From: Anaerobaca lacustris
GTDB taxonomy: Bacteria; Planctomycetota; Phycisphaerae; Sedimentisphaerales; Anaerobacaceae
Direction of reading: 5' to 3'
DNA length: 38,147 nt
Assembly: GCF_030012215.1 (NCBI RefSeq)
Contig: NZ_JASCXX010000036.1
Location: forward strand, 1 to 38,147
How positions within the stretch are numbered: the stretch's first letter is position 1; each line of letters opens with the position of its first letter. The position numbers were made by a program, and so were the translations under genes. Below are positions 18,014-38,147 of this stretch, one piece after another. The notes under the pieces were generated by a model that saw only the letters and a list, made by a program, of their open reading frames with translations, searched no databases and was not told where the DNA came from.

Positions 18014-18043
18014 AGTTTTCTCGCCTACAAGCGTCACCCGTTG

Positions 18044-19611: not shown

Positions 19612-19613
19612 GA

Positions 19614-21367: not shown

Positions 21368-21396
21368 GGCCTTCGTATCCTTCCGATGCAAACACG

Positions 21397-25213: not shown

Positions 25214-25465
25214 GCAACCCAAGGCGTTCCAGCATCTCCCAACGCTCGGTTTGAATAGGACCGCCCAGTCGAGCTATACCAACCCAACAGTCCCTACACT
25301 ACGCTCACAGCCTGAAGAGAATCATACCCCCCACTCGCATTGAGCCAGCAGCCCCCTCTTCAAGCGCCGGCACGTGAGAGCCCGAGCCATTGCCATAACA
25401 GATATGGCCGAGTCAAGACGCGGCAGCGCACCCTACTGAGGAGTCCGATAACCCGTTTTAGCGTA

Positions 25466-25550
25466 TTTCTTCACATTTGACGCCTTGCCCCGTTTTTCAG
25501 ACACACCTACACATAGAACCAGAGCCATATTATCCGCTTTCTTCACATTT
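25466..25550. repeat. 13-bp direct repeat pair (TTTCTTCACATTT) downstream of the recombinase
   Basis: TTTCTTCACATTT occurs at 25466-25478 and 25538-25550, 72 bp apart. Its reverse complement begins AAATGTGAA, the same 9-mer that lies at 26371-26379 in the recombinase promoter. These are candidate binding sites for the recombinase or its regulator. The rest of 25214-25624 holds a C-run (25584-25592) and no gene I can support. Confidence 0.5.
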
Positions 25551-25624
25551 CCTCCGAAATGAACAATCCGGACCCCTCAAAAGCCCCCCCCCGTGAACTG
25601 GAAAAGTGAGAGTTGGCCGGTGAC

Positions 25625-26368
25625 CTATGCGTAGGCAGCCTGTGGGCGGCGACCATCATCGGACTTACGGGCCTCGCTATAGGCCTGAGCCATCTTTTCA
25701 GTGGAGGGCGCCAGGTAGACCGAGGTCGTCTTGAGGCTTCGATGTCCCACCTGTTTCTGCACGACCGGAAGGGGCACGCCCCGGTCCACCACGTAGTGCA
25801 TCAGATGGCTGTGCCTCAATGAGTGCACGGTGAACATCTTCAGATCCCTGCCGTGCCGGTCTTTGCCATAAACCTGCTGCAAGCCGGCCTTGGTGACATA
25901 GTGCTGGAAGATCTGGCGGATGCGGTTTTCGGTATAGGGGGTATTCCAGCGTTTTCCAGGGTGAAATAGGTAGGCATCGGCTTTGAGGACCTTTTCATCC
26001 CGCTTGTTCATCAGGCCCTTGTACCTCAGGAGGCTCTTGAGTTCATTGGTCAGGCCTCTGGGCAGATAGCTGACGCGTGGGTGTCTGGTCTTGGTATTCT
26101 CGGCCGGGAAGAAGACCGTACTGCGGCTGAAGTGCACGTGCTTGATCTGAATGCGAACGAACTCCCCGACCCGGCAGCCCAGTTCGTAGATCACCTGGAA
26201 CATCAGTTTGTGATGGTACTGATCGACACTGTCGAAGAACTGCTGCAATTCATCCTGGGTCAGATAGCGGATGATCTCGCCGAAACGCTCGTATCGCTTG
26301 GCTCGTCTCGATTGTCTGCGTGCGTTGTGCCGCACGGCGGCGGGTTCATTGGGGCGGATGGTCTCCAT
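25625..26368 (-). CDS. Tyrosine recombinase/integrase (short, XerA-like)
   Basis: 247 residues. The catalytic set is complete: Arg ~66 in YELGCRVGEFVRIQIKHV, Lys in the NTKTRHPR beta-turn, HSLRHSH (His ~182, Arg ~185), His ~209 in QVGHRS and nucleophile Tyr ~218 in TTSVYLAPS. It lacks a long N-terminal arm-binding domain and has only ~40 residues before the catalytic core, so it is short for an integrase and closer to XerA-type or compact archaeal recombinases. The ATG 26368 has no SD but a TATA-like box at leaderless distance and a palindrome over the start region, so self-regulation is likely. It may promote integration, excision or multimer resolution of the element to its right. Confidence 0.88.
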   Translation of the reverse strand: METIRPNEPAAVRHNARRQSRRAKRYERFGEIIRYLTQDELQQFFDSVDQYHHKLMFQVIYELGCRVGEFVRIQIKHVHFSRSTVFFPAENTKTRHPRVSYLPRGLTNELKSLLRYKGLMNKRDEKVLKADAYLFHPGKRWNTPYTENRIRQIFQHYVTKAGLQQVYGKDRHGRDLKMFTVHSLRHSHLMHYVVDRGVPLPVVQKQVGHRSLKTTSVYLAPSTEKMAQAYSEARKSDDGRRPQAAYA

Positions 26369-26886
26369 GCAAATGTGAAATCACATCGGTATAAAAACCT
26401 TGTGTCGGTCACCCCATTCACAGACACAGGAGAACCGAAAAGCTTAAATACTTCAGAGTCTTCACAGTCATAAGGCTCAGAAAGACCCACGGGCATCACA
26501 CCTGTCGCGACCTTGCGGACGCTCACGTCACAAGAAGCCGATGCAGGAGATGATAGGACCGCGTGCTCCGGCCATCTCGATAGCCCCGCCACTTCGGCGT
26601 ATTCCGGCCCGCAAGACCTGGAATACCATGCAATCGCCAGACCCCCATCGCTGGCCTTCATAGCCACAGCTTTCTCCATCCCTCTCACATCCAGCGTTTC
26701 GGCCTCGAATGTCACATCCACTTCTGCCCCGCCCTTCTCCTTTGAGTTCACCCTCTTCCAGCCCGTAAAACCCGGAATACCCTGAAATACCCCCCTACCG
26801 GCAGATGCCGTCATGCCAACTGCCACCACGTGGGGCGTCTCGTTGTCCTGTTCTATATGCCACCTGCCAGGACCATCTGTGCCCAC
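26260..26886 (-). CDS. Doubtful hypothetical frame (208 aa)
   Basis: An open minus-strand frame with some coding-like composition (GAEVDVTFEAETLDVRGMEK, ASDGGLAIAWYSRSCGPEYA). It has no clear SD, reads through the recombinase promoter and ends inside the recombinase gene in another frame. A plus-strand TATA-like sequence (GCTTAAATAC near 26440) also lies inside it. I recognise no domain. Only the upstream part (~26480-26886) could be a real or decayed gene. Otherwise 26.4-27.07 kb has no supported gene. Confidence 0.2.
   Translation of the reverse strand: MGTDGPGRWHIEQDNETPHVVAVGMTASAGRGVFQGIPGFTGWKRVNSKEKGGAEVDVTFEAETLDVRGMEKAVAMKASDGGLAIAWYSRSCGPEYAEVAGLSRWPEHAVLSSPASASCDVSVRKVATGVMPVGLSEPYDCEDSEVFKLFGSPVSVNGVTDTRFLYRCDFTFAWRPSAPMNPPPCGTTHADNRDEPSDTSVSARSSAI
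26373..26397 (-). promoter_or_regulatory. Leaderless archaeal-type promoter with palindromic operator for the recombinase
   Basis: On the minus strand TTTTTATA (26397-26390) is centred 25.5 nt upstream of the ATG at 26368. Between box and start lies ATGTGA-TT-TCACAT (26386-26373), a perfect 6-bp inverted repeat at the expected transcription start. Binding there would block initiation. Confidence 0.65.
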
Positions 26887-27011
26887 ACCATGGCTCGTGC
26901 CCGTTGGCTGCCCGCCGCACGACTGCGCACCTGCACCGTCGGCGTTTCGCTGCTGATGCTGATGGTCACACCGCGGCCTTCGAGCCGGTCTGCCTGGCTG
27001 ATCGCTCCCGC

Positions 27012-27035
27012 AAAAAGGTCGCTCCGTGGGCGACC
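27012..27035 (-). terminator. Hairpin + T5 on the minus strand
   Basis: On the minus strand GGTCGC-CCACGGA-GCGACC is followed by TTTTT. It lies ~40 bp downstream, in the minus sense, of the palindromic TATA box at 27071-27082. A transcript started there would end after only a few tens of nucleotides. Confidence 0.5.
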
Positions 27036-27070
27036 TCTCTCGGCCTTCGATATCTCAGCATCAGCCAAAA

Positions 27071-27123
27071 GGTATAAATACCCCATCATCCTGTACGATC
27101 GTACGGATTGGTATCATCCAATC
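27071..27123 (+). promoter_or_regulatory. Palindromic TATA box with two operator-like inverted repeats
   Basis: GGTATAAATACC (27071-27082) is a symmetric TATA-like box. It is followed by the perfect palindrome GTACGATCGTAC (27093-27104) at the expected transcription start, and by GATTGG-TATCAT-CCAATC (27106-27123). The gene start at 27143 lies 66 nt from the box centre, so the transcript would have a ~40-nt leader containing the second repeat. The symmetry allows transcription in both directions. Confidence 0.6.
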
Positions 27124-27142
27124 GATCAGGAATAACCGGAAC

Positions 27143-27412
27143 ATGGCAAAACCCGAAACTGTTTTCAAAGTGGGCGCCGTCCGGGCCTCGATATTCAGAA
27201 ATACCGTTGAGCGAAACGGCCAGAGTATCCCGTTGCCCAAGGTGGTCATCGAAGTCCGCTACAAGGACAAGACAGGCCAATGGAACGGAACCAACAGCCT
27301 CAGTCTCAACGACATCCCCAAGGCGATCCTGGCCCTCCAGAAGGCATTTGAGTATCTGACCGGGCACAAAGAGCCCGAATCACCCGAAAGCCTCTCCACA
27401 GGCCCCCAATAG
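27143..27412 (+). CDS. Small conserved hypothetical protein (89 aa)
   Basis: The sequence FKVGAVRASIFRNTVERNGQ, LPKVVIEVRYKDKTGQWNGT, NSLSLNDIPKAILALQKAFE has a beta-hairpin, strand, helix layout. It resembles a family of small proteins found on bacterial and archaeal plasmids and phages (K-x-G-x-V-x-A-S/T-I/V-W/F followed by a Y-K-D-K-x-G-x-W hairpin and a final helix). I cannot name its function; a nucleic-acid-binding fold is possible. It has its own operator-rich promoter and is the first plus-strand gene before the Ubl cassette. Confidence 0.7.
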   Translation: MAKPETVFKVGAVRASIFRNTVERNGQSIPLPKVVIEVRYKDKTGQWNGTNSLSLNDIPKAILALQKAFEYLTGHKEPESPESLSTGPQ

Positions 27413-27549
27413 GCCCAGAAGCCCACTTCCCACAAAGCATCGAGAGCTGAATTCTCATCCTGCTACCTGGAGGGCCGCAGGCACTTTTTCCATTCCCACC
27501 TCATCAACGCTCGGCCATATGGCCCGAGCTTCTATTCATACCCACAGAG

Positions 27550-27574
27550 CCTCTGGTCGTTCCAGGGGCCTTTT
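27550..27574 (+). terminator. Hairpin followed by CCTTTT between the small gene and the GHKL gene
   Basis: CCTCTGG-TCGTT-CCAGGGG forms a 7-bp stem (one G:T pair) followed by CC and TTTT. It could end the upstream transcript or act as a leader structure for the GHKL gene, which starts 68 nt later. Confidence 0.45.
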
Positions 27575-27641
27575 CGTGCGCGAACCTGATGGCGCGCTCG
27601 TTCAAACCAGCATGCCATCGCCATTCATGGAGGTATTGCCC

Positions 27642-29273
27642 ATGCAGATCATAAGAGCACAAGTCAGCGAACGCTTGCTGTCCAAGGCCACAAGGCTCTT
27701 CACCGGCGCCGTGGACGGTCGGATCATCGAGATCCTGCAGAACGCCAGAAGAGCGGGTGCCACAGAGGTGCACATCATCAACAGCAGCGGCCAGGTCACG
27801 GTTAGTGACAACGGTCGTGGCATCGAGGACTTTGCCGCACTATTGGACCTGGGCCGATCCGGCTGGGATGACCGCACCGAGTATGCCGAGGACCCGGCCG
27901 GCGTAGGTGTGTTCTGCCTGGCGCCGCGCGAAGTGTGCATCAAATCCGGCGGCAAACAGGCGGTCATTAAGGGCAAGGGCTGGACCGGCGAGCCGGTCGA
28001 GGTGTTGACGGCAGAGCGGTCCTGCAAGGGCACAGAGATTGTCTTCGACGATCAGCCCTGGCTGTTCGAGACGGTCCAGAAGCACGCGGTCTTCAGCGGC
28101 TTGACCGTGACTGTAGACGGCGAGCTGTGCGCACGTGAACCGTTCGTATCGGATACGGCATCGCCGCATCCGGAACTCGGCTGTCGGGTCGAGGTGCGCG
28201 AACGAAATACCCTGAGTCAGTGGCACACTCAATGGAAGCGCAGCTACTACGCCGACGACGTCCTGGTCAACTTTCACGGCCAGGTGGTGGCGTTTACCTA
28301 CATGCCCCTGAGCGAGCATTTGCAGTTCCTTGTCGACCTGACGGGCGAACCGACAGGGATTCGGCTGATGCTGCCGGCGAGAGTCCAACTCATCGAGAAC
28401 GATGCCCTGAACGAACTCAAGGCAGCGATCGAACGTGAGGCCTACCTGTACATCCAGAAGCGAGGCTCTCACAAGCTCAAATTCAGCGAATACCGCCGAG
28501 CCAAGGAGCTCGGCATCGCATTGCCGGAGGCCGACCCCGCGTTCCAGGTGGGTCTGCTGACCGGTGAACCTGTCGAACCGGTTGAGGTCACAAAGCCAAA
28601 GGACTTTCCACTGGCGCAGTGTTATCGCCTGGGTAAGACGTGCATGGATGCCGATGACGCGAACGAGGCGAACGTCCATCTTCTCTCGGCCCTGGGCACA
28701 TTCGAATCGCCCTTTGTCGTAGTGGACATCTCGCCGGACTACGACGGCTACACCTGGGCCCGATTGCCGACTGTCGAACAGGTCGAAGTCAAGGCCGGCA
28801 AGGAGATCCAGTCGCAGTACCTCTGGTGTGAGAGGCTGGTTGCCGTCGAAAGCATTCAGATTTCGGCCCATACCAGTGACGGCCGAACGTTCACATCGGT
28901 CGTGCCAATGGCCATCCGTGAACACACCCGGCCGGAAGGTGCAGGCACCTGGGTCGCGACCCATGTACTGGTGACACCGATGGCGAGAGACCAACTGAGC
29001 CCTGCCGACATCTGGTTTCACTGTGGGGGCTTCTCCGAAGACGGTGACACGTACGATACGCAACTGGAGGATTTCGAAGGACAGTTGAATCGGTTCTGGG
29101 CCGAGCTCATCGGACCGGGAGAATACCTTCGGCAGAGGCTCCTGGACTGCGTTCGAGATTTCGACCTCCAGTGGAAGCACATCAGTATCGAATCCAGCGG
29201 CAAGGTCTGGATCACCTACGAGGACGGCACCGCCCGGATGCTGCAACCGCCTGAGATCTCGGCTGCTTCGTGA
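27642..29273 (+). CDS. GHKL-superfamily ATPase (HSP90/MutL/MORC-type ATP-binding protein)
   Basis: 543 residues from ATG 27642 (GGAGGT SD 7 nt upstream; in-frame ATGs at 27519 and 27612 lack one). The Bergerat fold is clear: N-box GRIIEILQNARRAGATEVHI (Glu ~30, Asn ~34), G1 box VSDNGRGI (~54-61) and G2 box DPAGVGVFCLA (~84-94), with a GTEIVFDD strand further on. A central region (residues ~150-290) and a C-terminal half with no recognised domain follow (…YDGYTWARLPTVEQVEVKA, LVTPMARDQLSPADIWFHCG). There is no His-kinase dimerisation domain, so this is an HSP90/MORC-like ATP-driven clamp rather than a sensor kinase. It is the first large gene of the cassette. The association with Ubl genes suggests chaperone-like or remodelling work, which is inference. 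Confidence 0.85.
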   Translation: MQIIRAQVSERLLSKATRLFTGAVDGRIIEILQNARRAGATEVHIINSSGQVTVSDNGRGIEDFAALLDLGRSGWDDRTEYAEDPAGVGVFCLAPREVCIKSGGKQAVIKGKGWTGEPVEVLTAERSCKGTEIVFDDQPWLFETVQKHAVFSGLTVTVDGELCAREPFVSDTASPHPELGCRVEVRERNTLSQWHTQWKRSYYADDVLVNFHGQVVAFTYMPLSEHLQFLVDLTGEPTGIRLMLPARVQLIENDALNELKAAIEREAYLYIQKRGSHKLKFSEYRRAKELGIALPEADPAFQVGLLTGEPVEPVEVTKPKDFPLAQCYRLGKTCMDADDANEANVHLLSALGTFESPFVVVDISPDYDGYTWARLPTVEQVEVKAGKEIQSQYLWCERLVAVESIQISAHTSDGRTFTSVVPMAIREHTRPEGAGTWVATHVLVTPMARDQLSPADIWFHCGGFSEDGDTYDTQLEDFEGQLNRFWAELIGPGEYLRQRLLDCVRDFDLQWKHISIESSGKVWITYEDGTARMLQPPEISAAS

Positions 29274-29309
29274 GGCAGGCAGGACAATCCCAATCATCAT
29301 CAACCCAGC

Positions 29310-29339
29310 ATGGCACGCCATCCAATCGAGGCGTGCCAT
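29310..29339 (+). promoter_or_regulatory. Perfect 10-bp intercistronic hairpin
   Basis: ATGGCACGCC-(10 nt)-GGCGTGCCAT lies between the GHKL stop and the next start, and TTTT follows 7 nt later, just before the GGAGGT SD of the next gene. It could stabilise 3' ends, attenuate, or mark an RNA processing site. Confidence 0.6.
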
Positions 29340-29362
29340 CGCACGTTTTGGAGGTAAAGAAT

Positions 29363-30274
29363 ATGGCATGGAGACCAACACAGTATCTGGTAGAAGGCGA
29401 GCTCGACAACACCCATTTGGGCAAAGTCACCGGATGGATGCGGTTCGCCGGAATGAACGACAAGGTGACGCTTGATTTGGAAGGGGATTTCCACAGGGAC
29501 ATCCGCGGCGCGAAGATTCGCTTCACAGGCGATGCATCTGAGACAGACCCACCGGCCGATGCCAAAGAGTACATGGCGGGTTTTGCCCTGCATCACACCG
29601 GCAAGGTCGGCGACATGACGGCGGGCCTGCCACCAGCAGACTATGTGGCCGGCTATTGCTATCTGGAATGGTACGGTGAAGAGAACGGCCGCGTGGTCAT
29701 CGAGCTGGAACCGACACAGGTCGAGGTGATTGGGACACCGATCCCGGCGCGGGAGTCCTATCCTGTCTCACGGGACACCCAGAAACGCAACATGGCCGAG
29801 TTCCTCGGCGAGATTGCCGCCGAGACGAACCTGCCGGCAGAACGCGTGGTCTGTATCGGTGGCGATACGACGGTTACAGCCGACAGACGGACGGCCAACG
29901 ACAGGGTTCGCGGCATGAAGCTCCTGCCGCAGGAGATCCGTAAGATACTGCCGCCGCTCTATGCCCAGGATGGCAAGGGCGCAAAGGCCATTGCGTATCT
30001 GAAGTACTTCACTCCTTCAAGTTCATGGACTTGGTACATCACGGAAGGATCGCCCATCAAGGACGAGAGCGGCAAGGAGGTGGATTTTCACTTCTTCGGC
30101 CTGGTGGACGGCCAGGACAAAGAGCTGGGCTACGTAGCCTTGTCGGAGCTGGAAAGCGTTCGGGGTCCCATGGGCTTGCCCATCGAGCGCGATCTCTGGT
30201 GGAAGCCAAAGACCCTGGAAGAGATCGCGCCGGAGATGTTTCCGTCCGAGGAAAGAACGGAGGGACAGGGATGA
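29363..30274 (+). CDS. DUF2958-domain protein with an additional N-terminal domain
   Basis: 303 residues from ATG 29363 (GGAGGT SD). The N-terminal ~130 residues (QYLVEGELDNTHLGKVTGWM, KVTLDLEGDFHRDIRGAKIR, NGRVVIELEPTQVEVIG) form a beta-rich domain I cannot name. The C-terminal ~105 residues are DUF2958: MKLLPQEIRKILPPLYAQDG, AIAYLKYFTPSSSWTWYITE, VDFHFFGLVDGQDKELGYVA, LSELESVRGP and a closing WWKPKTLEEI. DUF2958 proteins are common on plasmids and integrative elements, often near PRTRC-type genes; their function is unknown. The stop overlaps the next start by 4 bp (ATGA). Confidence 0.85.
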   Translation: MAWRPTQYLVEGELDNTHLGKVTGWMRFAGMNDKVTLDLEGDFHRDIRGAKIRFTGDASETDPPADAKEYMAGFALHHTGKVGDMTAGLPPADYVAGYCYLEWYGEENGRVVIELEPTQVEVIGTPIPARESYPVSRDTQKRNMAEFLGEIAAETNLPAERVVCIGGDTTVTADRRTANDRVRGMKLLPQEIRKILPPLYAQDGKGAKAIAYLKYFTPSSSWTWYITEGSPIKDESGKEVDFHFFGLVDGQDKELGYVALSELESVRGPMGLPIERDLWWKPKTLEEIAPEMFPSEERTEGQG

Positions 30275-30711
30275 CGAGGAGATGCCAGAGTTCACGAGGT
30301 AACAATAGTGGTGCGAAGGCCAACGGCAAAGCTCTCAGTAGCACGGGCCGGGGCCAAAGACTCCTGCCGTATGCGATCCGCGAGAATCTGCCCATCCTGG
30401 GCTCGCAGCGCAGGCTCGGCGGCAGAGCAAAGGCCCTGGTGCGATGGTCTACCCTCGATGGCTCACGCGAATGGTACGTCACCGAAGGTTCGGCTCGAAG
30501 GACTCCGGACGGCAACGCCGTGGACTATCTGCTCTATGGCCTGGTCGTAGGGCAAGGCCGGAAGTTCGATTACTTCTGGCTGTCGGATGTGATGATGCAC
30601 CACAGTCCGGGGGGCATGCGTGTGGAGCGAGATTCTCGCTGGCGGCCGAAGAGGCTCGATGAGATCGCCCCGCAGATGTTCAGGTCCCAAGACAAAGAAC
30701 AGGAGGACTGA
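30271..30711 (+). CDS. Second DUF2958-domain protein
   Basis: 146 residues. After a basic, low-complexity N-terminus (~30 residues), the DUF2958 pattern is complete: RLLPYAIRENLPILGSQRRL, AKALVRWSTLDGSREWYVTE, VDYLLYGLVVGQGRKFDYFW, LSDVMMHHSPGGMRVERDSR, WRPKRLDEIAPQMF. It is a paralogue of the C-terminal half of its upstream neighbour, with which it overlaps by 4 bp. Tandem DUF2958 genes suggest that the two form a heteromer, or that one is a specialised copy. Confidence 0.8.
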   Translation: MTRRCQSSRGNNSGAKANGKALSSTGRGQRLLPYAIRENLPILGSQRRLGGRAKALVRWSTLDGSREWYVTEGSARRTPDGNAVDYLLYGLVVGQGRKFDYFWLSDVMMHHSPGGMRVERDSRWRPKRLDEIAPQMFRSQDKEQED

Positions 30712-30713
30712 TT

Positions 30714-31643
30714 ATGGAACAATACTGCCAGAATCCACTCTGTAACAACGAGGCCACCAAGGTCGTGGCGGTCTCTGTAGACAAGCCATCCGATCAGCGG
30801 CGATCGCTCTGTGCGGTCTGCGACGAGGCTTACTCCTGGGGCGTACAGCATGGTTGCATGAGGGCCACGCCCAAGAAGCTCTGGATTGCAGCTGTGACCC
30901 ACCGTGGCGATGTCGTTCATGCCAAGGCCGTTGCCGGGAAGGTCAAGGCGGTCAAGGCCCTGGCCGAGTACCTCAAGACCGAGGAAGGCTATGTGGGCCC
31001 GGCCGAGTTGCCCGGCATCTGCGCCTGGCTGGCCGAACACGATGAACGGTTGGGCATCGAGCTCTTCGCAGCATCGGTAGATGCCGCCGGCGAGGACTCG
31101 TGTTCCTGCGATGCACCGGACGATGCGAACGCTCGGAGATGCCTGATCATTGACCCTCCACCGCAGGAAGAGGGCCCGGAGCTGCTCTATCGCGCGGTCT
31201 ATGCCATCGACGTCAACGCACACAACGCCCATCAGGCCGCTGAACGGGCGTACGACATCATGACCGATCCAGAGTCCATGCGGCCGGTGCTCTATGTATT
31301 GGACGGCGATGGCTCCCAGAGCATTGTGGACCTGGCGGCCGAATCGTCACAGGCATCGGACAGATCTGAAGCCAGCGAATCGCAGGCAAAGGTGCGCAAA
31401 TTCATCCAGACGAACGGGACCCGCTGCCCGCAGTGCAGTAGCAAAGAGATCGACTTCGGTGGCGTCGAGCTGGATGCCCGCTGCGCCTATCAGGAAGGCT
31501 ACTGTCGGAGTTGTCAGGCGAGGTTCTGTGCCGTGTACCGGCTGGCGGGGTACGGATTGCACGTCGGCGGCTCGTTTGAGGTCCGTACCCTCTCAGACGA
31601 CCACGCCGCAGCCGGAGAGGATGGCCGACGAACTGAGAGCTGA
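30714..31643 (+). CDS. Zinc-finger protein with N-terminal and C-terminal Cys4 clusters
   Basis: 309 residues with an AGGAGG SD and only a 2-bp gap to the previous gene. The N-terminal finger has C5 and C10 (YCQNPLCNNEA) paired with C33 and C36 (CAVCDEAY). The middle (residues ~55-200) is mixed and holds a lone Cys pair (SCSCDAP). The C-terminal zinc ribbon is CPQCSSKEIDFGG…YCRSCQARFC. I know no family name for this arrangement. Two treble-clef/ribbon fingers imply nucleic-acid or protein binding, and in this cassette a substrate adaptor role is conceivable but unproven. Confidence 0.7.
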   Translation: MEQYCQNPLCNNEATKVVAVSVDKPSDQRRSLCAVCDEAYSWGVQHGCMRATPKKLWIAAVTHRGDVVHAKAVAGKVKAVKALAEYLKTEEGYVGPAELPGICAWLAEHDERLGIELFAASVDAAGEDSCSCDAPDDANARRCLIIDPPPQEEGPELLYRAVYAIDVNAHNAHQAAERAYDIMTDPESMRPVLYVLDGDGSQSIVDLAAESSQASDRSEASESQAKVRKFIQTNGTRCPQCSSKEIDFGGVELDARCAYQEGYCRSCQARFCAVYRLAGYGLHVGGSFEVRTLSDDHAAAGEDGRRTES

Positions 31644-31659
31644 CGAACGAACGTCGGCT
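31638..31659 (+). promoter_or_regulatory. 8-bp hairpin spanning the zinc-finger gene stop
   Basis: AGCTGACG-AACGAA-CGTCGGCT forms an 8-bp stem (one G:T pair) that includes the stop codon at 31641. It is one of several hairpins in the gaps of this cassette. Confidence 0.45.
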
Positions 31660-31697
31660 GTACCCACAATACAGAGAACCCATTGAAGGAGATTGCC

Positions 31698-32051
31698 ATG
31701 CTCAACGAAGTCTACGACACCATCGAGGCAGTCCTCGAAGGCCTCGATACCGGGGGCGAACCATCCCGTGCCTACGCCGAGGAGATCAAGATGCTCAAGG
31801 ATGTACTGGGCTATCCGGATCCTGCGGCCGATGCGCACGATGAGGCCATGAGGCGGTATCACATCGCCCGAAAGCTCGAACGATTGGGCATCGAAGCACA
31901 GGATGTGACCGTTGCGCTGCCGGTTGTGCCCGTCACACACTGGCTGGCCGGCACTTGCACGAACACTGCACCAGGCGCCCCCACAGAGCCGTGCGACCTG
32001 GCTCGACTGCTCCAGGTCCTCTGCGACACGATCCGCGCCGAGCTGAACTGA
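31698..32051 (+). CDS. Hypothetical small, largely helical protein (117 aa)
   Basis: The start is ATG 31698 with AAGGAG seven bases upstream. The sequence is acidic and helical at the start (MLNEVYDTIEAVLEGLDTGG, AYAEEIKMLKDVLGYPDPAA, DEAMRRYHIARKLERLGIEA), with a less ordered middle (TVALPVVPVTHWLAGTCTN) and a final helix. I do not recognise it. It is located directly before the Ubl gene, with a 208-bp gap. Confidence 0.6.
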   Translation: MLNEVYDTIEAVLEGLDTGGEPSRAYAEEIKMLKDVLGYPDPAADAHDEAMRRYHIARKLERLGIEAQDVTVALPVVPVTHWLAGTCTNTAPGAPTEPCDLARLLQVLCDTIRAELN

Positions 32052-32150
32052 GCATCCACACCGCATCGCATACACCCCCCCCCACAACGACACTTCACCT
32101 CTCTAACTGACCTACCCTCAGTAACCCGAACCCAGATGAAAGGATACACC

Positions 32151-32192
32151 ATGAACCCCAAGGGACACTCTGCGCGCAGTCCGCCTCTGTGA
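32151..32192 (+). CDS. Possible 13-aa leader peptide upstream of the Ubl gene
   Basis: ATG 32151 follows a GAAAGGA SD by 6 nt and encodes MNPKGHSARSPPL before TGA. A CTGCGCGCAG palindrome lies inside it. It sits in the 208-bp gap before the Ubl gene. It may be a translated leader that regulates the Ubl, or chance. Confidence 0.25.
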   Translation: MNPKGHSARSPPL

Positions 32193-32259
32193 CACGAGCA
32201 CAGCATCACACTCCATAGCAAACACGCTCACTGTATACACATACCGAAAGGAACAAACT

Positions 32260-32481
32260 ATGAAGATCCTGTTCATCAATAATTCAGGTGGCGGCTTCGC
32301 CGATTATCTGGACGTCAACGATCAAACGACTGTGTCGCAGTTCTTCAAGGACAAGATGCCTCATGAGCGGCCTGAAGACTATCTGATCCGCGTCAATCGC
32401 CAGCCGGTGCCGCGCGATTACGTGCTGCAAGCCAACGACCGCGTGACCGTCACGCCCACGAAGATCGAGGGGGCGGCATAG
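32260..32481 (+). CDS. Ubiquitin-like beta-grasp protein (ThiS/MoaD-like Ubl)
   Basis: 73 residues with an AAAGGAA SD. The beta-grasp order is visible: strand MKILFINNSG, strand YLDVNDQTTV, helix SQFFKDKMPHE, strands DYLIRVNRQPVPRDYVLQAN and DRVTVTPTKI. The C-terminus is IEGAA, not the usual GG, although the protein is the right size and lies three genes before an E1. In the cassette it is the probable modifier, activated by the ThiF-like protein and transferred by the E2-like protein. With -GAA, either the JAMM protease trims it to the Gly, or conjugation uses Ala, or it is not conjugated. ThiS/MoaD sulfur-carrier function is less likely because no thiamin or molybdopterin genes are near. 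Confidence 0.85.
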   Translation: MKILFINNSGGGFADYLDVNDQTTVSQFFKDKMPHERPEDYLIRVNRQPVPRDYVLQANDRVTVTPTKIEGAA

Positions 32482-32505
32482 CCGTTCCACGTGATGAACA
32501 TCACC

Positions 32506-32542
32506 AAGGGCATCTGTCTGCTTCTGGCGGGCAGGTGCCCTT
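32506..32542 (+). promoter_or_regulatory. Strong hairpin in the leader of the E2-RING gene
   Basis: AAGGGCA-T-CTG pairs with CAG-G-TGCCCTT around a 15-nt loop: ten pairs with one internal mismatch. It lies between the Ubl stop (32481) and the SD (GAAAGGA) of the next gene, so it could tune the ratio of modifier to E2. Confidence 0.5.
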
Positions 32543-32563
32543 TGCCATTTGAAAGGAACCATC

Positions 32564-33691
32564 ATGAATGACAAGGAACTGGTACGCGTCGCGGCGGCCA
32601 TCGAGAACGCTTTGTGGCAGTTGCGCAAGAGCCGCTACGCGAGGTGTGCAGCGCAGTTGAGCCTGTTCGCCGGCACGATACGGAACCTGATCGGCGATTC
32701 CCGAAAGCTTGCCGTGGCTGTGTCCCGCGACTGGATTGCAGCGGCCGAACACTCCTGTAAGACGATTAGCCGGCAGTTGGGTGAGATCCCATTCCTGGCT
32801 TCCAATATCCAGTCGCTTCTGGACAGGCGACACAGAGAGATGCCAGCTCTCTCTGCGATCGCAGCAGACCTGTGGGCGTTGCAGCAGGAGTTCGATGACG
32901 TCGCATTCAACGGCGAGGAAAATGCCCTCTGCGTGGTCACGGAAGCGATTACCCTGGAAGATATCTACCTGGGGCGGTTTCGGATTGCATTGTATCTGGA
33001 CAGTCTGAGTGAGCTGTATCAGAAGGTGCCGTACTATGTGGTGGCCATCGATCCTCACCCGGCGGCAACCGACAACGCCATAACGCATCCGCATGTGAGC
33101 CACGATGTGGTCTGCGAAGGCGACGGCGCAGCGGCTATCAAAGCAGCGCTCGAAACAGGGCGACTGGTGGACTTCTTCACTATGGTCCGCAGCATCCTGA
33201 CGACCTACAACCCCGACAGCCCCTATGTACCACTGACGGACTGGCATGGGGTGTCATGCTACGAGTGCGGCTACATCGTGGACAGCGAGCAATCCTATTA
33301 TTGCACCTGTTGTGACAACGCGGTGTGTGATGACTGCTCGGCCGTCTGCGCCGGTTGCAGCGAGATCATCTGCAAGAGTTGCGCCGGTACATGCGAGATC
33401 TGCGAGCGTTCGTTGTGTCCGAGGTGTGCGAAGAAGAAGTGCAGTGAATGTGAATCGGTGTGCTGTGAATCGTGTCTTGATGAGGGGCTGTGCCCCGAGT
33501 GCAGAGAAGAAAGGCAAAGCAATGAAGAACAGGAAACAGAAGACGAGCAAGAAGCCCCAACCGGTCAAGAAGCAGCGGTTATGGGAGGACGACTGGCCGA
33601 TGGAGGACAGCGAGCCGGTACAGCCTACGCTGCGGTTCAGCCCGACGGCGTGGGCCAAGCTCCTGTACTTCCGGGACCAATCGGACAATGA
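32564..33691 (+). CDS. E2-like (UBC-fold) protein fused to a Cys-rich RING/treble-clef-type zinc-finger region
   Basis: 375 residues from ATG 32564 (SD AAAGGA). Residues ~1-115 are helical. Residues ~133-227 fit the E2 core: [14 protein letters not shown] (strands), [14 protein letters not shown] (E2 flap), then [14 protein letters not shown], where HPH replaces the E2 HPN and Cys ~184 is the predicted thioester Cys. A C-terminal part [31 protein letters not shown] matches the E2 'siLl.pnp.sPl' end. Residues ~232-313 hold about 20 Cys in pairs (CYEC, CTCC, CDDC, CAGC, CKSC, CEIC, CPRC, CSEC, CCESC, CPEC), a chain of RING/B-box-like fingers. The final ~60 residues are acidic, then Ala/Gly-rich. 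It probably combines conjugation and ligase functions in one chain. E2 assignment rests on motif spacing only. Confidence 0.75.
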
Positions 33692-34310
33692 GGTGGGCGG
33701 CTTTGGCATCACCGATCCGGACGACCTGCTGTTCGTACAGGACGTCGTCGCCGTCAAACAGGAAGTTACCTCCATCAGTGTCAAGTTCGATGACGAGGCG
33801 GTCAGTAAGTTCTTCGACGAGCAGGTGGACCTGGGCCGAAGGCCCGAACAGTTCGCGCGGCTTTGGCTGCATACCCATCCTGGAGACTCGCCGGAACCCA
33901 GCGACAAGGATGAGGAGACCTTCAAACGCGTGTTCGGCGCGTGCCAGTGGGCGGCGATGGTGATCGTGGCCCAGGATGACAGCACGTACGCCCGCCTGAG
34001 CTTTAACGTCGGTCCGGGCAGTCAGGTGTTGATTCCTGTAGGGATCGATTATTCACAGGCGTTTGGCCCCAGCGACCATGACGCTTGGGACACCGAGTAT
34101 GCGGCCAACGTCAGGGCCGTGGACTGGCTGTGTGAGACGGCTCAGCATGAGAAGCCATCGGCCGATAGGCAATTGTACAGCGATGTCATGCCGTACGATT
34201 TCCTGGCGGAATTCGAGGGCATGGAACCGGCCCAACGCCAGGCGCTCCTCGATGAGCTGGCGGACCGGCCGGAACTGTGGGACCGGGAAAGTGAGGTGCT
34301 GTTCTTATGA
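33522..34310 (+). CDS. JAMM/JAB (MPN) metalloprotease, deubiquitinase-like
   Basis: 262 residues from ATG 33522 (AAAGG SD 9 nt upstream); 33600 is an alternative start. A basic N-terminal tail ([17 protein letters not shown]) precedes the JAB fold from ~37. The JAMM motif is complete: Glu ~57 (NEVGGFGI), then [14 protein letters not shown] with His ~117, His ~119, Ser ~127 and Asp ~130, i.e. HxH-x7-S-x2-D. Zn2+-dependent removal or maturation of the Ubl is the expected activity. It overlaps the E2-RING frame by 170 bp in a different frame and its stop overlaps the ThiF start (ATGA). The C-terminal ~60 residues (…[18 protein letters not shown]) are helical and of unknown role. Confidence 0.88.
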
Positions 34311-34972
34311 GAGATGACGAAAGGTACAGCCGCCAGCGCGACATCGTGCCGCCGGAACGGATCGTGGTCTGTCGAGCCACAGTGATCGGCGTCGGCGCCA
34401 TTGGGCGCCAGGTCGCCCTGCAGCTTGCGGCGATGGGAGTCCCGTGGCTCGAACTCGTGGACTTCGATCTGGTCGAGACGAGCAATCTGGCCAGTCAGGG
34501 CTACCTGGAAGACGATCTGGGCCAACTCAAGGTCGAGGCCACGGCCATGCAGTGTGAACGCATCAACGCCGGAATCGAGATCGTCTCTGTGCCCCAGCGG
34601 TTTCGTCGCAGTATGGAGATCGGCAACGCCGTCTTCTGCTGTGTGGACAAGATCGATGTCCGCCGGCTGATCTGGCAGGCGGTAGGGGACCAGGTGGGCT
34701 TCTTCTGCGATAGCCGGATGAGTGCCGAGGTCCTGCGGGTCCTGACGGCCTGTGATGCGCCATCGCGGTCGCACTATCCCAGTACGCTCTTCCGCACGGA
34801 GGAGGCCTTTGTCGGCCCCTGCACGGCCAAGACCACGATCTACTGCGCCAACATCGCTGCCGGCCTGATGATCGCCCAGTTCACCAAACACCTGCGGCAC
34901 CTGCCCGTCGACCCGGACATCCAACTGAATCTGCTGGCCTCGGAGCTGAATGTCACTGATGCCTGCCGGTGA
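34307..34972 (+). CDS. ThiF/E1-like Ubl-activating enzyme
   Basis: 221 residues. RYSRQ starts the family pattern. The nucleotide-binding GVGAIG is at ~28-33, [16 protein letters not shown] at ~51-66 supplies the Asp and Asn of the adenylation site, Lys ~75 follows in LGQLKVEAT, and a [10 protein letters not shown] strand carries Asp ~114. Cys ~172 in [20 protein letters not shown] is the best catalytic-Cys candidate, in the place where JAB-linked bacterial E1s carry it. The CxxC zinc pairs of ThiF/MoeB are absent, and NLxxQ has Ser where Arg is usual. It activates the Ubl C-terminus with ATP. It is the last gene before a strong hairpin and overlaps the JAMM gene by 4 bp. Confidence 0.88.
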
Positions 34973-34991
34973 GTGTGGCAGGCGGGTTTTG

Positions 34992-35017
34992 GGGAGGGCC
35001 GACGACAAGGCCCTCCC
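34992..35017 (+). terminator. Strong hairpin after the Ubl cassette
   Basis: GGGAGGGCC-GACGACAA-GGCCCTCCC is a perfect 9-bp G:C-rich stem 20 bp after the E1 stop, followed by a pyrimidine-rich stretch but no T-run. It is a probable 3' end or transcript-stability element for the cassette. An A/T-rich AATATATAG near 35039 may be a further TATA-like site. Confidence 0.65.
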
Positions 35018-35080
35018 TCTGCTCGCTCCTGACAGCACAATATATAGATCTGTATTCACTATTTCCGATCACCGCAATCC

Positions 35081-35088
35081 TTAAATAC
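35081..35088 (+). promoter_or_regulatory. Archaeal-type TATA box for the 68-aa gene
   Basis: TTAAATAC (with CC upstream) is centred 27.5 nt before ATG 35112. No SD precedes that ATG, so the transcript would be leaderless or nearly so. Confidence 0.6.
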
Positions 35089-35111
35089 TCCTTCTGCGTT
35101 GTCATTATCAA

Positions 35112-35318
35112 ATGACATCGAAAACACATACACCACAAGACAAAGACGACAAGGCCGTTCGTACCCTCGAAGAGATCTGTGAGAACACCCGCGCCATCCG
35201 CCGGGTGGTCAACCGCATTCTGGACCACCTGCACGAGACCCAGGACACAGACGACGACTACGACCCCTATACCCTCGACTGGGCCGATCTGGACAACTAC
35301 GACGACATGTATTACTGA
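35112..35318 (+). CDS. Small acidic protein (68 aa)
   Basis: Helical first half (KAVRTLEEICENTRAIRRVV, NRILDHLHETQ) and a highly acidic, Tyr-rich tail (DTDDDYDPYTLDWADLDNYD, DMYY). It reads like a short coiled-coil segment with an acidic C-terminal peptide. I do not recognise the family. It is leaderless with its own TATA box, upstream of the other small genes and Orc1/Cdc6. Confidence 0.6.
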   Translation: MTSKTHTPQDKDDKAVRTLEEICENTRAIRRVVNRILDHLHETQDTDDDYDPYTLDWADLDNYDDMYY

Positions 35319-35363
35319 GCCGGCGTCCCGGACGCCGGCCGGTGGTCGCGTGGCAACCAAAGG

Positions 35364-35371
35364 TTTATATA
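35364..35371 (+). promoter_or_regulatory. Archaeal-type TATA box for the 110-aa gene
   Basis: TTTATATA (AGGTTTATATAGC) is centred exactly 25.5 nt before ATG 35393. No SD is present. It has the same geometry as 6512-6519, 6561-6568 and 26390-26397. Confidence 0.7.
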
Positions 35372-35392
35372 GCCCGGTCGCCTATTGCTTCC

Positions 35393-35725
35393 ATGGTAGA
35401 ACCGGACCTGCAAGACAGACTCCAGCGCCTCCAGGAGAGCCTCCGCCGCATCAGGGCCCTGCTCGCCTGGGAGCGGCTCAAACGCCGGGAGGACCAATCC
35501 AACGGGATACCGGCGTTTCGAATACACGATTCCACCGCAGAGGACCTTCGCAGTGAGTACTCCATTCTGCTGACCGGTCTGCTGCAGATGTACTGTCTTC
35601 TCCATCACCGCTCGTCCATCGTCGCACAGTCCATCCGCGAGGACATCTTCCAGCGCCTCGCCGAGATCGAGTGGCAGCTCTATCGCCTGCAACTGCACCG
35701 AAGGTTCGGAGGGCCTGGCACGTGA
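35393..35725 (+). CDS. Small helical/coiled-coil protein (110 aa)
   Basis: I place the start at ATG 35393 by the TATA spacing. The sequence is strongly helical: MVEPDLQDRLQRLQESLRRI, RALLAWERLKRREDQ, then AEDLRSEYSILLTGLLQMYC and EDIFQRLAEIEWQLYRLQLH. A coiled-coil adaptor, perhaps for the next gene, is likely. Its stop overlaps the next start (GTGA at 35722). Function unknown. Confidence 0.6.
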   Translation: MVEPDLQDRLQRLQESLRRIRALLAWERLKRREDQSNGIPAFRIHDSTAEDLRSEYSILLTGLLQMYCLLHHRSSIVAQSIREDIFQRLAEIEWQLYRLQLHRRFGGPGT

Positions 35726-36429
35726 AAATGGGTTTGTTCGATCTGTTCAGGTCAAAACGCACGAAGGCAAGCGTCTCCCAGGAGGAACACCGCCGCCTGG
35801 CCGCAGCATTCTACGATCTCCGGACGCAGGTCTCAAACCTGGACGCCCAGATCGCCACCGTCCATATGGCGCTTCGCCGGCACGAGAACGATATCGCCGC
35901 CTGCAAGGACCTCACCGGCCGCCACGAAAAGGCTCTGACACTGCTGGAGCAGATCGTCAACACACCATCCGCCCTGTCAACCGGGTATGCCGACCGATTC
36001 CCACAGCACTCAGTCCCCGCCGTGAAAGAAACGTCGAACCCGCCAACCATCGAATCAGCGTCTTATCCACCGGCGCGCCGACTCGACCTCGACCGATTCA
36101 CCGAGCAGCAGAAACGACTGCTGGCCGCGTTCGTTCAAAACCGGGACCGGACGATGTCTTACGCCGACCTTGCCGCCGTGCTCGGCAAGTCCGCCTATAC
36201 GATCAAGAACCAGATGAACCAGATCCGGCACAAGGCCGACCTGTTCGACTGCACCGTAGGACCCGAAAGCCGCAATTATTTCAAACTCAAGGACGACCTG
36301 AAGGTCGAGAAGCAGCTCAAGACCGGCCGACCCGCAGGGCGCCCGGTGTCGATGGCTGAACCCGACCGGACGATGTCCGGGCCCGAAACGACCCCATCGG
36401 AACTGACCTTCTCACATTCATTGTTCTAA
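35722..36429 (+). CDS. Coiled-coil + winged-helix protein, next to Orc1/Cdc6
   Basis: 235 residues from GTG 35722 (overlaps the previous stop); ATG 35728 is an alternative start. Residues ~1-90 are a coiled coil (LFDLFRSKRTKASVSQEEHR, LAAAFYDLRTQVSNLDAQIA). Residues ~130-200 have a winged-helix pattern (FTEQQKRLLAAFVQNRDRTM, SYADLAAVLGKSAYTIKNQM, NQIRHKADLFDCTVGPES) with a helix-turn-helix at SYADLAAVLGKSAYTIKNQM. The N-terminal KMGLFDLFRSK start resembles a small group of archaeal proteins, which is a weak impression. It is likely a DNA-binding regulator or replication accessory of the element. Confidence 0.65.
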   Translation: MKMGLFDLFRSKRTKASVSQEEHRRLAAAFYDLRTQVSNLDAQIATVHMALRRHENDIAACKDLTGRHEKALTLLEQIVNTPSALSTGYADRFPQHSVPAVKETSNPPTIESASYPPARRLDLDRFTEQQKRLLAAFVQNRDRTMSYADLAAVLGKSAYTIKNQMNQIRHKADLFDCTVGPESRNYFKLKDDLKVEKQLKTGRPAGRPVSMAEPDRTMSGPETTPSELTFSHSLF

Positions 36430-36600
36430 CCCCGGACGGCACGATACCCTGTATCGCCCCATGCAAGCCGGCACGCTGGCAAGATTTTCGTTCCTGGCGG
36501 CAAAGTGAGAGTTGCGGCCGGCTCCGTCTGCAGGCGATCCCGAAATGGCCTGGTGACCTTGCACTATCACAATGATGGTTCGAGTCGTTTGGCTGCCCAC

Positions 36601-36618
36601 TATTCGGATAACCGAATA
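36601..36618. promoter_or_regulatory. Inverted repeat, candidate origin-binding or operator site upstream of Orc1/Cdc6
   Basis: TATTCGG-ATAA-CCGAATA is a perfect 7-bp inverted repeat in the 311-bp gap before the initiator gene. It does not match the classical ORB consensus. Orc1/Cdc6 origins usually lie next to the gene, so this gap (36430-36741), which holds no gene, is the best place for one. Confidence 0.45.
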
Positions 36619-36692
36619 ACTTCGCCCGACAGTCAATCGCACCCTCTGTGGGTCCATCTCAACGGACTCTACATCCGGTCCGCAACGGCAGG

Positions 36693-36700
36693 TTTATAAA
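36693..36700 (+). promoter_or_regulatory. Archaeal-type TATA box upstream of Orc1/Cdc6
   Basis: TTTATAAA (AGGTTTATAAACC) is a symmetric TATA box centred 45.5 nt before ATG 36742, so the predicted transcript has a ~20-nt leader. No strong SD lies in it. Confidence 0.6.
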
Positions 36701-36741
36701 CCCCCTCGACTTTACGCGTCCAGCGAGGTTTATGCGTCATC

Positions 36742-37830
36742 ATGGATATCGATCAGTATCTCTCAGAGAAACAGGCGGCCCTGGACAAGGGCGCCGACAG
36801 GATTCGCAACTTCGAGGTCTTTGACTTCAATTACGTTCCCGAAAAGCCCCTCATGCGCGAGGAGGTCAAACCGGTCATCGACGCCCTGCTGCGCTATCAG
36901 CAGACCGGGATCGCCAACAACGTCCTGGTCCTGGGCTCGCGCGGATCGGGCAAGAGCGTTCTGGCCAGGTGCTTGATGAATCTCATGTCCCAGCAGGGTC
37001 AGGCCGCCTTCGCCTATGCCAACTGCCGCCAGCACAATACCAGCGTCAAGATCCTGGCCGCCCTGCTCGGCCTGCGGCCACGAGGGTCGAGTCTCGACGA
37101 ATTGTGGCAGCGGTTTGAGAATGCCCACGAGGGTCGGGTCGTCTTCGTGCTCGATGAGGTCGACCTGATCAGCGAGAAGGACCGACACAAGGACATCCTT
37201 TATCTTCTCAGTCGCTCGACCAGGAATTATATGGCGGTCCTTTTGAGCAATAACCCCAAGTTCCTCAACCTGCTCGATGAGAGCATCAAGAGCACGCTGC
37301 AACCGGAGATCGTGCACTTTCGCAACTATGACGCCACCGAGATCGAGCGCATTCTCCTGGATCGCGCGCGAATCGGCCTGAAGACAACACCGGCGGGCAC
37401 ACCCAGTGAGATCGCCGCCATGACCGCCAGGAACACCAATTCCGACGTGCGCGTGGCCATCAAGACGCTCTACCTATGGGCCCTGGAGCCGCAGACGGCC
37501 ATTGCCGAACACTTCGAGAAGGCCAGACGCGACATCATGTTCGATGTGATCCGGGACCTCAACGACCGCAACCTCCTGATCCTCCGGGCCGTCCTCGATG
37601 AGTCCGACGGCTTTGCCAAAGACGTCTACGAGACCTATCGCCGCAGAAGCGCCCAAGTCCACGAAGAGCCCTTCAGCTACATGCACTTCTATTCGAATCT
37701 CTCCTATCTTCAGAGCCTTGGCCTGCTCGTTCTGATCTCGACCAAGGTCAACCGCACGTATACCAACCGGATCCAGTTGACCTTCGATCCAAGTATCCTC
37801 GATGCCGTCTGGACGATGCGGTTCGCCTGA
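36742..37830 (+). CDS. cdc6: Orc1/Cdc6-type replication initiator (AAA+)
   Basis: 362 residues. Walker A GSRGSGKS is at ~65-72 and Walker B VVFVLDEVDL at ~133-142. Sensor I is the MAVLLSNNPKFL region (Asn ~170). STLQPEIVHFRNYDATEIER is the post-sensor 'P-x-I-x-F' segment before the AAA lid. The C-terminal winged helix spans ~290-355 (…FSYMHFYSNLSYLQSLGLLV, LISTKVNRTYTNRIQLTF). The N-terminal FDFNYVPEKPLMREEVKPVI is typical of archaeal Cdc6, where Y-x-P-x-x-P-x-R-E-x-E precedes the ATPase. Archaea use it to bind origins and load MCM; here it most likely initiates replication of an extrachromosomal or integrated element. Length and motifs are complete. Such a gene is unexpected beside the bacterial-looking left part. 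Confidence 0.9.
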   Translation: MDIDQYLSEKQAALDKGADRIRNFEVFDFNYVPEKPLMREEVKPVIDALLRYQQTGIANNVLVLGSRGSGKSVLARCLMNLMSQQGQAAFAYANCRQHNTSVKILAALLGLRPRGSSLDELWQRFENAHEGRVVFVLDEVDLISEKDRHKDILYLLSRSTRNYMAVLLSNNPKFLNLLDESIKSTLQPEIVHFRNYDATEIERILLDRARIGLKTTPAGTPSEIAAMTARNTNSDVRVAIKTLYLWALEPQTAIAEHFEKARRDIMFDVIRDLNDRNLLILRAVLDESDGFAKDVYETYRRRSAQVHEEPFSYMHFYSNLSYLQSLGLLVLISTKVNRTYTNRIQLTFDPSILDAVWTMRFA

Positions 37831-37893
37831 AGCACCGGCTTGGTGCGGGCTCATGGTCGCAGATGAGGCGACCGGAGACGGCCGAGTGCCCGA

Positions 37894-37911
37894 CCCAGTG
37901 GATCCATTGGG
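37894..37911. repeat. Imperfect palindrome downstream of Orc1/Cdc6
   Basis: CCCAGTGGATCCATTGGG is an 18-bp near-palindrome (one mismatched pair) in the 159-bp gap after the initiator gene. It could be a second initiator-binding site or a transcript-end hairpin. The remainder of the gap shows nothing else I can name. Confidence 0.35.
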
Positions 37912-37989
37912 CGACTGGGTGATCGAGTCCCCCCTGCCAGTCATCGGCCGTCTGTCTGCCGGTCGATGCCCATGAAAGGAGTCGCAACA

Positions 37990-38147
37990 TGGTGGACAGG
38001 ACGATACGGCGGAGACAAGAAGTATACCGCCCTCACACGGACACGAAAAGATGGTATACCACAAATGGACGGCTGAAACATCCGTATCCAGAAACAGGCT
38101 GCGGTCCGGATCGCAGGACGAATCGACGGCAAAGAAGGGCAAGAGGA
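37990..38147 (+). CDS. Possible start of a gene (partial, runs off the right edge)
   Basis: ATG 37990 follows an AAAGGAG SD by 7 nt and the frame stays open to the window end (MVDRTIRRRQEVYRPHTDTK, then RWYTTNGRLKHPYPETGCGP). The product is strongly basic. No domain can be recognised from 52 residues. An overlapping frame from 37972 (MKGVATWWTGRYGGDKKYTA) ends after 34 codons and is the less likely choice. Confidence 0.35.

Follow-up and report, generated by a model that had tools for sequence, protein, structure and literature searches.

A candidate ubiquitin-like protein conjugation operon in planctomycete mobile elements and viral contigs

Can four adjacent genes on a planctomycete contig encode all the steps needed to attach a ubiquitin-like protein (Ubl) to a target and to remove it again? 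The question is raised by contig NZ_JASCXX010000036.1 of Anaerobaca lacustris (C36 in our numbering), which we analyzed over its entire length of 38,147 nucleotides (nt) and refer to as the window; the assembly comprises 5.73 Mb in 117 contigs. Genes for a Ubl, an E2-like protein, a JAMM metalloprotease, and an E1/ThiF-type adenylating enzyme lie at 32260-34972 (about 2.7 kb), all on the plus strand and in this order. We consider that they probably encode a complete and working Ubl conjugation pathway used by bacterial mobile elements and phages, with a probability of about 0.78. The operon was filed as a variant of prokaryotic Ubl conjugation systems. Below, L with a number denotes a fetched locus or record, C51 a second contig of the same genome, and G331 another genome of the planctomycete phylum.

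The four genes and their predicted products

The E2-like protein (32564-33691, plus strand; 375 amino acids counted from ATG) was predicted to begin with a helical hairpin (residues 3-87), followed by a helix (96-109), strands (112-161), and two further helices (186-197 and 201-213). The motif HPHV is located at 175-178 and the putative catalytic cysteine at C184. The predicted local distance difference test (pLDDT) score was 84 for the full-length model and 90.7 for residues 93-318 alone; the element order of a UBC domain was present, and the C-terminal part from about 334 was of low confidence. The VIA list for the full-length protein was filled by the helical hairpin, and the domain was therefore modeled alone. 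With this domain model, 49 of the 50 best rows listed by Foldseek were E2 entries by title, with probabilities of up to 0.94. Among the 50 rows listed by VIA (Z 6.2-7.3), 47 were E2 entries and three were KNL1 chains (RWD, a UBC-like fold). The spacing of HPH...C and a later NP resembles that of human Ubc13. Because both structure lists were uniform and this spacing was present, we accepted the UBC fold, and the modeled protein looks like a UBC-type E2. The initial annotation had placed such a fold at residues 133-227; the prediction agrees as to the fold and shifts its limits to about 93-230, after a hairpin of 85 residues. When BFVD was searched with the E2 domain, the top rows were mostly uncharacterised or Cys-rich-looking proteins, and entries named as viral E2s, from African swine fever virus and giant viruses, started at rank 40.

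H175, P176, H177, and C184 were invariant in the 33 aligned E2 proteins. Over 77 frames, the motif read HPH in 74, HPN in one, and HPA in one; the frame without it is a 35-residue fragment. The tail of the window protein (C232-C313) contains 20 cysteines arranged as ten CxxC pairs, a putative zinc-pair array. Bacterial copies have 7-11 such pairs (mostly ten) and viral copies 4-21, a variation which argues that the zinc array is not one fixed RING. No RING family of Pfam matched any of the 33 members, and the matches of the tail profile in the PDB, Midline-1 and TFIIH p44, were weak (best E 0.0019). These results do not establish the earlier assignment of the Cys-rich tail as a RING or E3 part.

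The Ubl gene (32260-32481, plus strand) encodes 73 amino acids ending in TPTKIEGAA. The product was weakly similar to ThiS of Pfam (E 0.006, below the cut-off), and its profile had no beta-grasp match in the PDB. The beta-grasp fold of the initial annotation is thus putative. All 73 closed Ubl frames end in K/R/N-x-x-G followed by at least one residue, which is A in 64, E in 3, S in 2, G in 2, P in 1, and D in 1. The tails past the conserved Gly range from 1 to 83 residues, the longest possibly being misjudged frames, and 71 of the 73 Ubls have no GG. Since the Gly is constant and the following residues vary, maturation probably takes place at Gly71, and G71 would be the C terminus of the mature Ubl. 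The Gly together with its obligate extension suggests that the pro-Ubl is matured by the JAMM protease. Plasmids searched with the Ubl and JAMM queries at E up to 10 yielded no clear relative.

The JAMM/JAB gene (33522-34310, plus strand; 262 amino acids) overlaps the E2 frame by 170 nt. Its product contains E57...H117-x-H119-x7-S127-x2-D130 and matched Prok-JAB with E 5e-5 and 23.7 bits (cut-off 25). The residues E57, H117, H119, S127, and D130 were present in 33/33 aligned rows, from which L049 had been left out as too short. HxHx7SxxD was found in 73 of 75 JAMM frames; the misses are short frames of 81 and 107 residues, and one of them, L058, has the motif in the 33-row alignment. A profile search of the PDB placed Rpn11 and N11-like proteins closest (E 0.0012), and the match to the Cap3 model was weak (E 0.002, 18.3 bits versus 200).

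The E1 gene (34307-34972, plus strand; 221 amino acids) overlaps the JAMM gene by ATGA. Its product carries GVGAIG and C172 and matched ThiF of Pfam with E 3e-21 (76.1 bits versus a cut-off of 28.1). C172 and eleven further positions were kept in all 73 frames, and the PDB profile matches included PaaA, ThiF, UBA7, MoeB, UBA5, and BubCD.

From these features we propose the following course. The JAMM protease would trim the pro-Ubl after the conserved Gly (KIEG/A...). The E1 would adenylate this Gly and then hold the Ubl as a thioester on C172, and C184 in the UBC domain would be the next acceptor of the Ubl; there, the second His in HPH may take the place of the oxyanion Asn found in HPN. Substrate selection may fall to the helical hairpin and zinc array fused to the E2, with no separate E3, and the JAMM protease may also remove the tag. 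A pathway of activation, conjugation, and removal on a mobile element had been proposed in the initial annotation, with an E3-like part in the E2 chain; the gene set and the UBC-type E2 fit that proposal, but the E3-like part is not established.

Occurrence in planctomycetes and viral contigs

The E2 query matched 13 of 99 genomes, its own genome counted, and 34 of 392 sampled genomes of the planctomycete phylum at E <= 0.001. Fourteen of these 34 (own genome included) matched at E < 1e-70, and the other 20 matches were weak and mostly confined to the tail. We compared 33 loci, namely the window, 31 genome_contigs loci, and one viral locus. The genome_contigs loci were obtained from the E2 alignment; 30 of the 31 were planctomycete by title, and L062 (a 3.8-kb contig) was SAR324. 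The co-directional set described in the initial annotation, in which HPHV/C184, the Cys-rich tail, the JAMM motif, GVGAIG, C172, and ATGA were all found in place, recurred elsewhere: in 26/33 loci the four genes were all present, with the same orientation and order. Six incomplete loci (L054, L062, L070, L071, L073, and L074) are explained by cuts at contig ends. L065 (CP070675, a 6.2-Mb chromosome) contains an E2 remnant at 10001-10444, corresponding to residues 146-291, and no recognisable partner genes were present in its fetched flanks, a sign of decay.

A second copy of the operon is located on C51, with an E2 93% identical to that of the window. On comparing the two copies, the ratio of nonsynonymous to synonymous substitution rates (dN/dS) was 0.08 for the Ubl, 0.16 for the E2, 0.19 for the JAMM, and 0.13 for the E1 gene, which indicates that all four are under purifying selection. 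The UBC section had the lowest value of the four E2 sections (0.087). The recurring order, the residues conserved over 73-77 frames, and the dN/dS values of 0.08-0.19 argue that the operon is not a chance arrangement.

Two types of bacterial surroundings were observed. In the Phycisphaerae type, to which the window belongs, a GHKL ATPase, DUF2958, and small zinc-ribbon-like proteins are often encoded ahead of the operon. In the second type (L063-L072, and genomes including G331), the operon is preceded by an AAA ATPase and a protein of 346 amino acids. The best solved relatives of this ATPase are Cdc48/p97 (E 2e-36), and its NCBIfam matches, CDC48 (6e-21) and antiphage IteA (1e-18), are both far under the cut-off. 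It was present in 16 of the 21 second-type loci, five of the 21 coming from one genome. G331, a single-contig genome, carries five diverged operon copies at five sites. Some copies have an integrase or a serine recombinase close by. The repeated mobile-looking units support the placement of the operon on a mobile element.

When the window E2 was used as a single-sequence query, viral contigs, PLSDB, and INPHARED gave no match. For the viral contigs at least, this reflects the sensitivity of the search, because profile scans then found viral relatives. IMG/VR was scanned with the E2, E1, JAMM, and Ubl alignments, which gave 34 distinct records. All four genes were present in 28 of them, with identical order and strand in 28/28; since three pairs among these have identical E1s, the independent cases are nearer 25. 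In L146 and L148, which belong to the 28, the E1 match was only 27%. L074, L122, and L149 are incomplete records cut by contig ends, and in L136-L138 the E1 match was 29-33%, with no more than scraps of the remaining genes present. HP[HN]...C was present in all 27 viral E2 frames listed. The fetched flanks of the 28 complete records held the AAA gene in 14 and the coiled-coil partner in 13. Record lengths reach 191 kb, some being 160-191 kb. Of 30 viral records, 10 contained Terminase_6N and none a tail sheath, and thus several records are classed as viral by IMG/VR alone.

The sampled neighbours in L074 include a DnaB-like helicase, a primase, an endonuclease, an exonuclease, and a NinB-type protein; on other sampled viral records, DNA polymerase, helicase, RNA ligase, NAMPT, and 2-aminoadenylosuccinate synthetase were observed. 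In L134, a 2-aminoadenylosuccinate synthetase-like gene at 17614-18990 (phrog_1211, E 3e-70) lies about 8 kb or less from the viral E1, a hint of a modified-base phage. In L149 (10279-10380) and L074 (from 44), which come from one metagenome, the E2 start lies at a contig end and is identical over 34 residues; the Ubl that L074 lacks may be the one on L149. PHROGs gave no match for the Ubl, E2, and JAMM of L118 or for the E2s of L119 and L133. The L133 JAMM weakly matched a 'tail protein' family (E 0.002), and E1s matched families of unknown function. The first three plasmid E1 matches inspected were ThiF genes in other contexts.

An E1 tree was built from 73 family rows and four PRTRC rows, with the root set for drawing only. 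Viral and bacterial E1s interleaved, with six changes of virus label, at least three of them forced by well-supported branches. L119, L133, and L134 grouped with the second bacterial type (89/86), and L074 and L114 with the Phycisphaerae type (85/89). A further 21 viral E1s formed a virus-only group of moderate support (88/85), L115 and L152 remained unplaced, and the long branches of L132, L134, L151, and L133 make single placements unsure. The presence of these genes, in an unchanged order, in many viral sequences suggests that viruses and mobile elements trade a Ubl-based weapon or takeover tool.

Known systems and alternative explanations

The Bil system has the same gene set and order as the window operon, and it is reported to tag phage tail proteins. 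Bil consists of Ubl, E2, JAMM, and E1, and its pro-Ubl BilA is reported to be processed by the JAMM BilC; BilA comprises two Ubl domains, BilB contains the motif CEHH, and BilD is made up of two adenylation domains and a Cys domain (PMC11354881). The window, in contrast, has one 73-amino-acid Ubl, HPH...C, a zinc array, and a 221-amino-acid E1, and by anatomy the operon is not Bil; the E1 gave a partial BilD match in PADLOC (E 2e-7). The Caldiarchaeum operon encodes Ub, E1, and E2 together with a zinc protein that acts as E3 and with Rpn11, which serves in both maturation and removal; the maturation of pro-ubiquitin by Rpn11/JAMM has been demonstrated, and complete operons are mentioned in some bacteria (PMC5654768). 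The best PDB match of the window JAMM is likewise of the Rpn11 type. The Caldiarchaeum RING protein is described as small and separate and its ubiquitin as ending in GG, whereas in the window family the E2 chain itself carries the zinc part and nearly all Ubls lack GG.

Citrobacter BubCD was among the E1 PDB matches (E 3e-11), with the match confined to the nucleotide-binding part. Bub is described as a putative immune pathway, with phage protection not yet shown and with a link to Cap regulators in many of its operons (PMC13373217). The Ube2w family is described as having HPH instead of HPN, and the second His can serve the oxyanion hole (PMC4630614). UbcA1 (3we5), a member of this family, was the first Foldseek row for the full-length E2 model (E 0.13), but other E2s ranked first for the domain model. 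CBASS with Cap2/Cap3 has an E2-E1 fusion and a neighbouring CD-NTase, whereas the window E1 and E2 are separate genes; no CD-NTase was reported among the window proteins scanned (Pfam, NCBIfam, PADLOC), and the E1 was a weak relative of the PADLOC E1-E2 models (E 7e-13). Distant E1-like genes were found in 82 INPHARED records, crAss-like phages among them, and adjoined a JAMM-like protease in both cases inspected. These were a crAss-like phage (L158, 3778-5666) and a further tailed phage (L156, 3613-5669), each with a ThiF/E1-like gene immediately after the gene for a JAMM-like metalloprotease (HxHx7SxxD). The crAss-like phage E1s were about 26-31% identical to the viral query E1 (L120), and no HPH-type E2 or zinc array was found among the five genes checked in each of L156 and L158. 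In a 228-kb Xanthomonas phage (L157, 2250-4928), a protein of 892 amino acids with ten CxxC is followed by an E1-like gene. The literature searched (titles, abstract starts, and passages), with the prokaryotic RING-finger work most pertinent to the fusion and the papers defining Bub outside that scope, contained no phage-borne Ubl-E2-JAMM-E1 operon or E2-zinc-array fusion; no priority is claimed.

PRTRC (type 6d) systems also have separate Ubl, E2, JAB, and E1 genes on mobile DNA (PMC1779556), and membership in this lineage would mean a role in element maintenance rather than warfare, which we regard as unlikely. The order on the Polaromonas JS666 plasmid, C(Ubl)-hypothetical-B(E2)-A(JAB)-ThiF, is that of the window operon, as is the order in Marinobacter, where no JAB is annotated; in Thiodictyon, which also has no annotated JAB, ThiF precedes C. 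Two of these three Ubls, those of Marinobacter and Thiodictyon, end in a single Gly. The E1 profiles matched in hhalign at 97.6%, as expected for two profiles of the E1 superfamily, but the E2 reached only 1.9% with PRTRC_B (E 0.025, the aligned stretch including the catalytic Cys) and the Ubl 0.1% with PRTRC_C. The NCBIfam PRTRC models gave no match to the window Ubl, E2, or JAMM at E up to 1, and the E1 scored 27.8 bits with the PRTRC ThiF model against a cut-off of 144.75. PRTRC ThiF formed a separate group on a long branch in the tree (100/100), and no ParB was found among 9 window proteins (NCBIfam) or 30 (Pfam). The 6d E2s are described as having no upstream His (PMC1779556), whereas the window E2 has one in HPH, as well as a helical hairpin and a zinc array. 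By curated models and profile comparison, the operon is not shown to be PRTRC. A PRTRC_B scan of the 392 genomes gave two matches, none above the cut-off. In two genomes of the phylum (L106, 48-3024; L107, 86-2920), the genes after a reverse-transcriptase gene (YADD) are those for a PRTRC_B-like E2 (E 3e-5 and 4e-4, both below the cut-off), a small protein, and a JAMM protein, which places a reverse transcriptase next to enzymes of a Ubl system.

The E1 and Ubl could instead form a sulfur-carrier relay of the ThiS/MoaD kind, supplying a thiocarboxylate for cofactor or RNA modification, with the JAMM protease processing the carrier. The weak ThiS likeness of the Ubl, ThiF/MoeB as the best NCBIfam models of the E1, and ThiF and MoeB among its best PDB matches speak for such a relay, but uncut loci also contain a UBC-type E2 with HP[HN]...C and no rhodanese domain was found among the 30 window proteins scanned (Pfam), so that a relay seems highly improbable. 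It is also quite improbable that the E2-like protein is mainly a zinc-array scaffold or nucleic-acid protein and that the Ubl goes to a lipid, RNA, or small molecule; the tail is long and variable (4-21 CxxC) and no E3 relation is proven, but the four motif residues are invariant in the aligned proteins and the UBC section is the one with the lowest dN/dS. A more serious contender, at somewhat below even odds, keeps the same biochemistry and sees in the operon a phage takeover or anti-defence tool, the bacterial copies being domesticated or satellite-borne phage modules. The 28 viral contigs with all four genes, the phage replication and recombination genes beside the sampled ones, the AAA and coiled-coil pair common to viruses (AAA in 14/28) and planctomycete elements (AAA in 16/21), and the serine recombinases or integrases near some copies are consistent with it. 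On the other side, the terminase and tail sheath counts leave several records viral by IMG/VR only, the window copy lies near defence-like genes, with which defence fits equally well, and the drawing root of the tree gives no direction of transfer.

Several points weigh against a working conjugation pathway. None of the 33 E2 members had an E2 match in Pfam. The best Foldseek value for the E2 domain (E 0.03) is not significant alone, and VIA values of Z < 8 may, by the tool's own note, reflect merely a common arrangement. Support for the Ubl fold is sub-threshold (the ThiS value of E 0.006, with no beta-grasp match in the PDB), and a single Gly rather than GG is unusual for a conjugated modifier. 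The AAA ATPase has relatives in 124 INPHARED phage records, whereas neither E2 query matches INPHARED, and this wide occurrence in phages weakens the case for a specific partner. Gene content, order, residue conservation, the predicted UBC fold, and the spread were computed, and from these we infer the chemical steps and the targets.

Surroundings of the operon and its possible use

The four-gene set forms the 3' end of a longer block (27543-34948, plus strand) that is common to the window and C51 at about 89% DNA identity and stops inside the E1 gene. A GHKL-type ATPase, weakly sacsin/Hsp90-like (27519-29273, plus strand), goes with the Phycisphaerae-type cassette. It matched the sacsin N-terminal domain (E 0.002, 18.6 bits, cut-off 50) and HATPase_c_3 (E 0.006, below the cut-off), and its alignment had no PDB match in a profile search. 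The associated genes, all on the plus strand, encode a DUF2958 protein (29270-30274, E 2e-10), a Cys-rich, zinc-ribbon-like protein (30714-31643), and a small conserved protein (31683-32051); a second DUF2958-like open reading frame of uncertain start (30025-30711, plus strand) overlaps the first. A tyrosine integrase is encoded near the cassette (25625-26368, minus strand; Phage_integrase, E 1e-24), and an ORC1/Cdc6-type protein at 36742-37830 (plus strand; TIGR02928, E 3.5e-38, 131 bits versus a cut-off of 181). An ORC1/Cdc6-type gene, here in a bacterial genome, adjoins the cassette in some relatives too.

On the minus strand, 9253-24249 is a defence-like block containing a ResIII helicase, RhuM, an N6/N4 methylase, a HerA-type ATPase, SIR2-like, DUF2130, DUF4276, and AAA_21 proteins, and an SNF2 helicase. 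No tRNA was found in the window, and an Rfam search of 24200-38147 gave no match. Conserved DNA near 27.0-27.5 kb has a short open frame in one reading and was taken as coding.

The likeliest use of the putative pathway may be in conflict among phages, elements, and host proteins. This role is a guess; judged by the company of the operon (mobile units, phages, and the defence-like genes in the window), conflict is more probable than housekeeping, and defence and phage takeover have about equal claims. A bolder scenario, which we hold to be doubtful, is that large phages trade the full Ubl pathway with mobile elements, that the one-chain E2/zinc-array protein tags its targets by means of a Ubl with a single Gly, perhaps at N-terminal amino groups (compare the HPH of Ube2w), and that one branch hands tagged proteins to a Cdc48-like ATPase. 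If this were true, viruses of bacteria would have an equivalent of the ubiquitin-segregase pathway.

If four genes in about 2.7 kb fill the eukaryotic E1, E2, E3, and deubiquitinating enzyme roles, they would make a tractable minimal system, with the fused zinc array as a one-chain E2/E3-like candidate. The always-extended, mostly single-Gly Ubl distinguishes this family from GG modifiers. The 28 viral contigs make the use of Ubl conjugation by phages against hosts or rivals directly testable.

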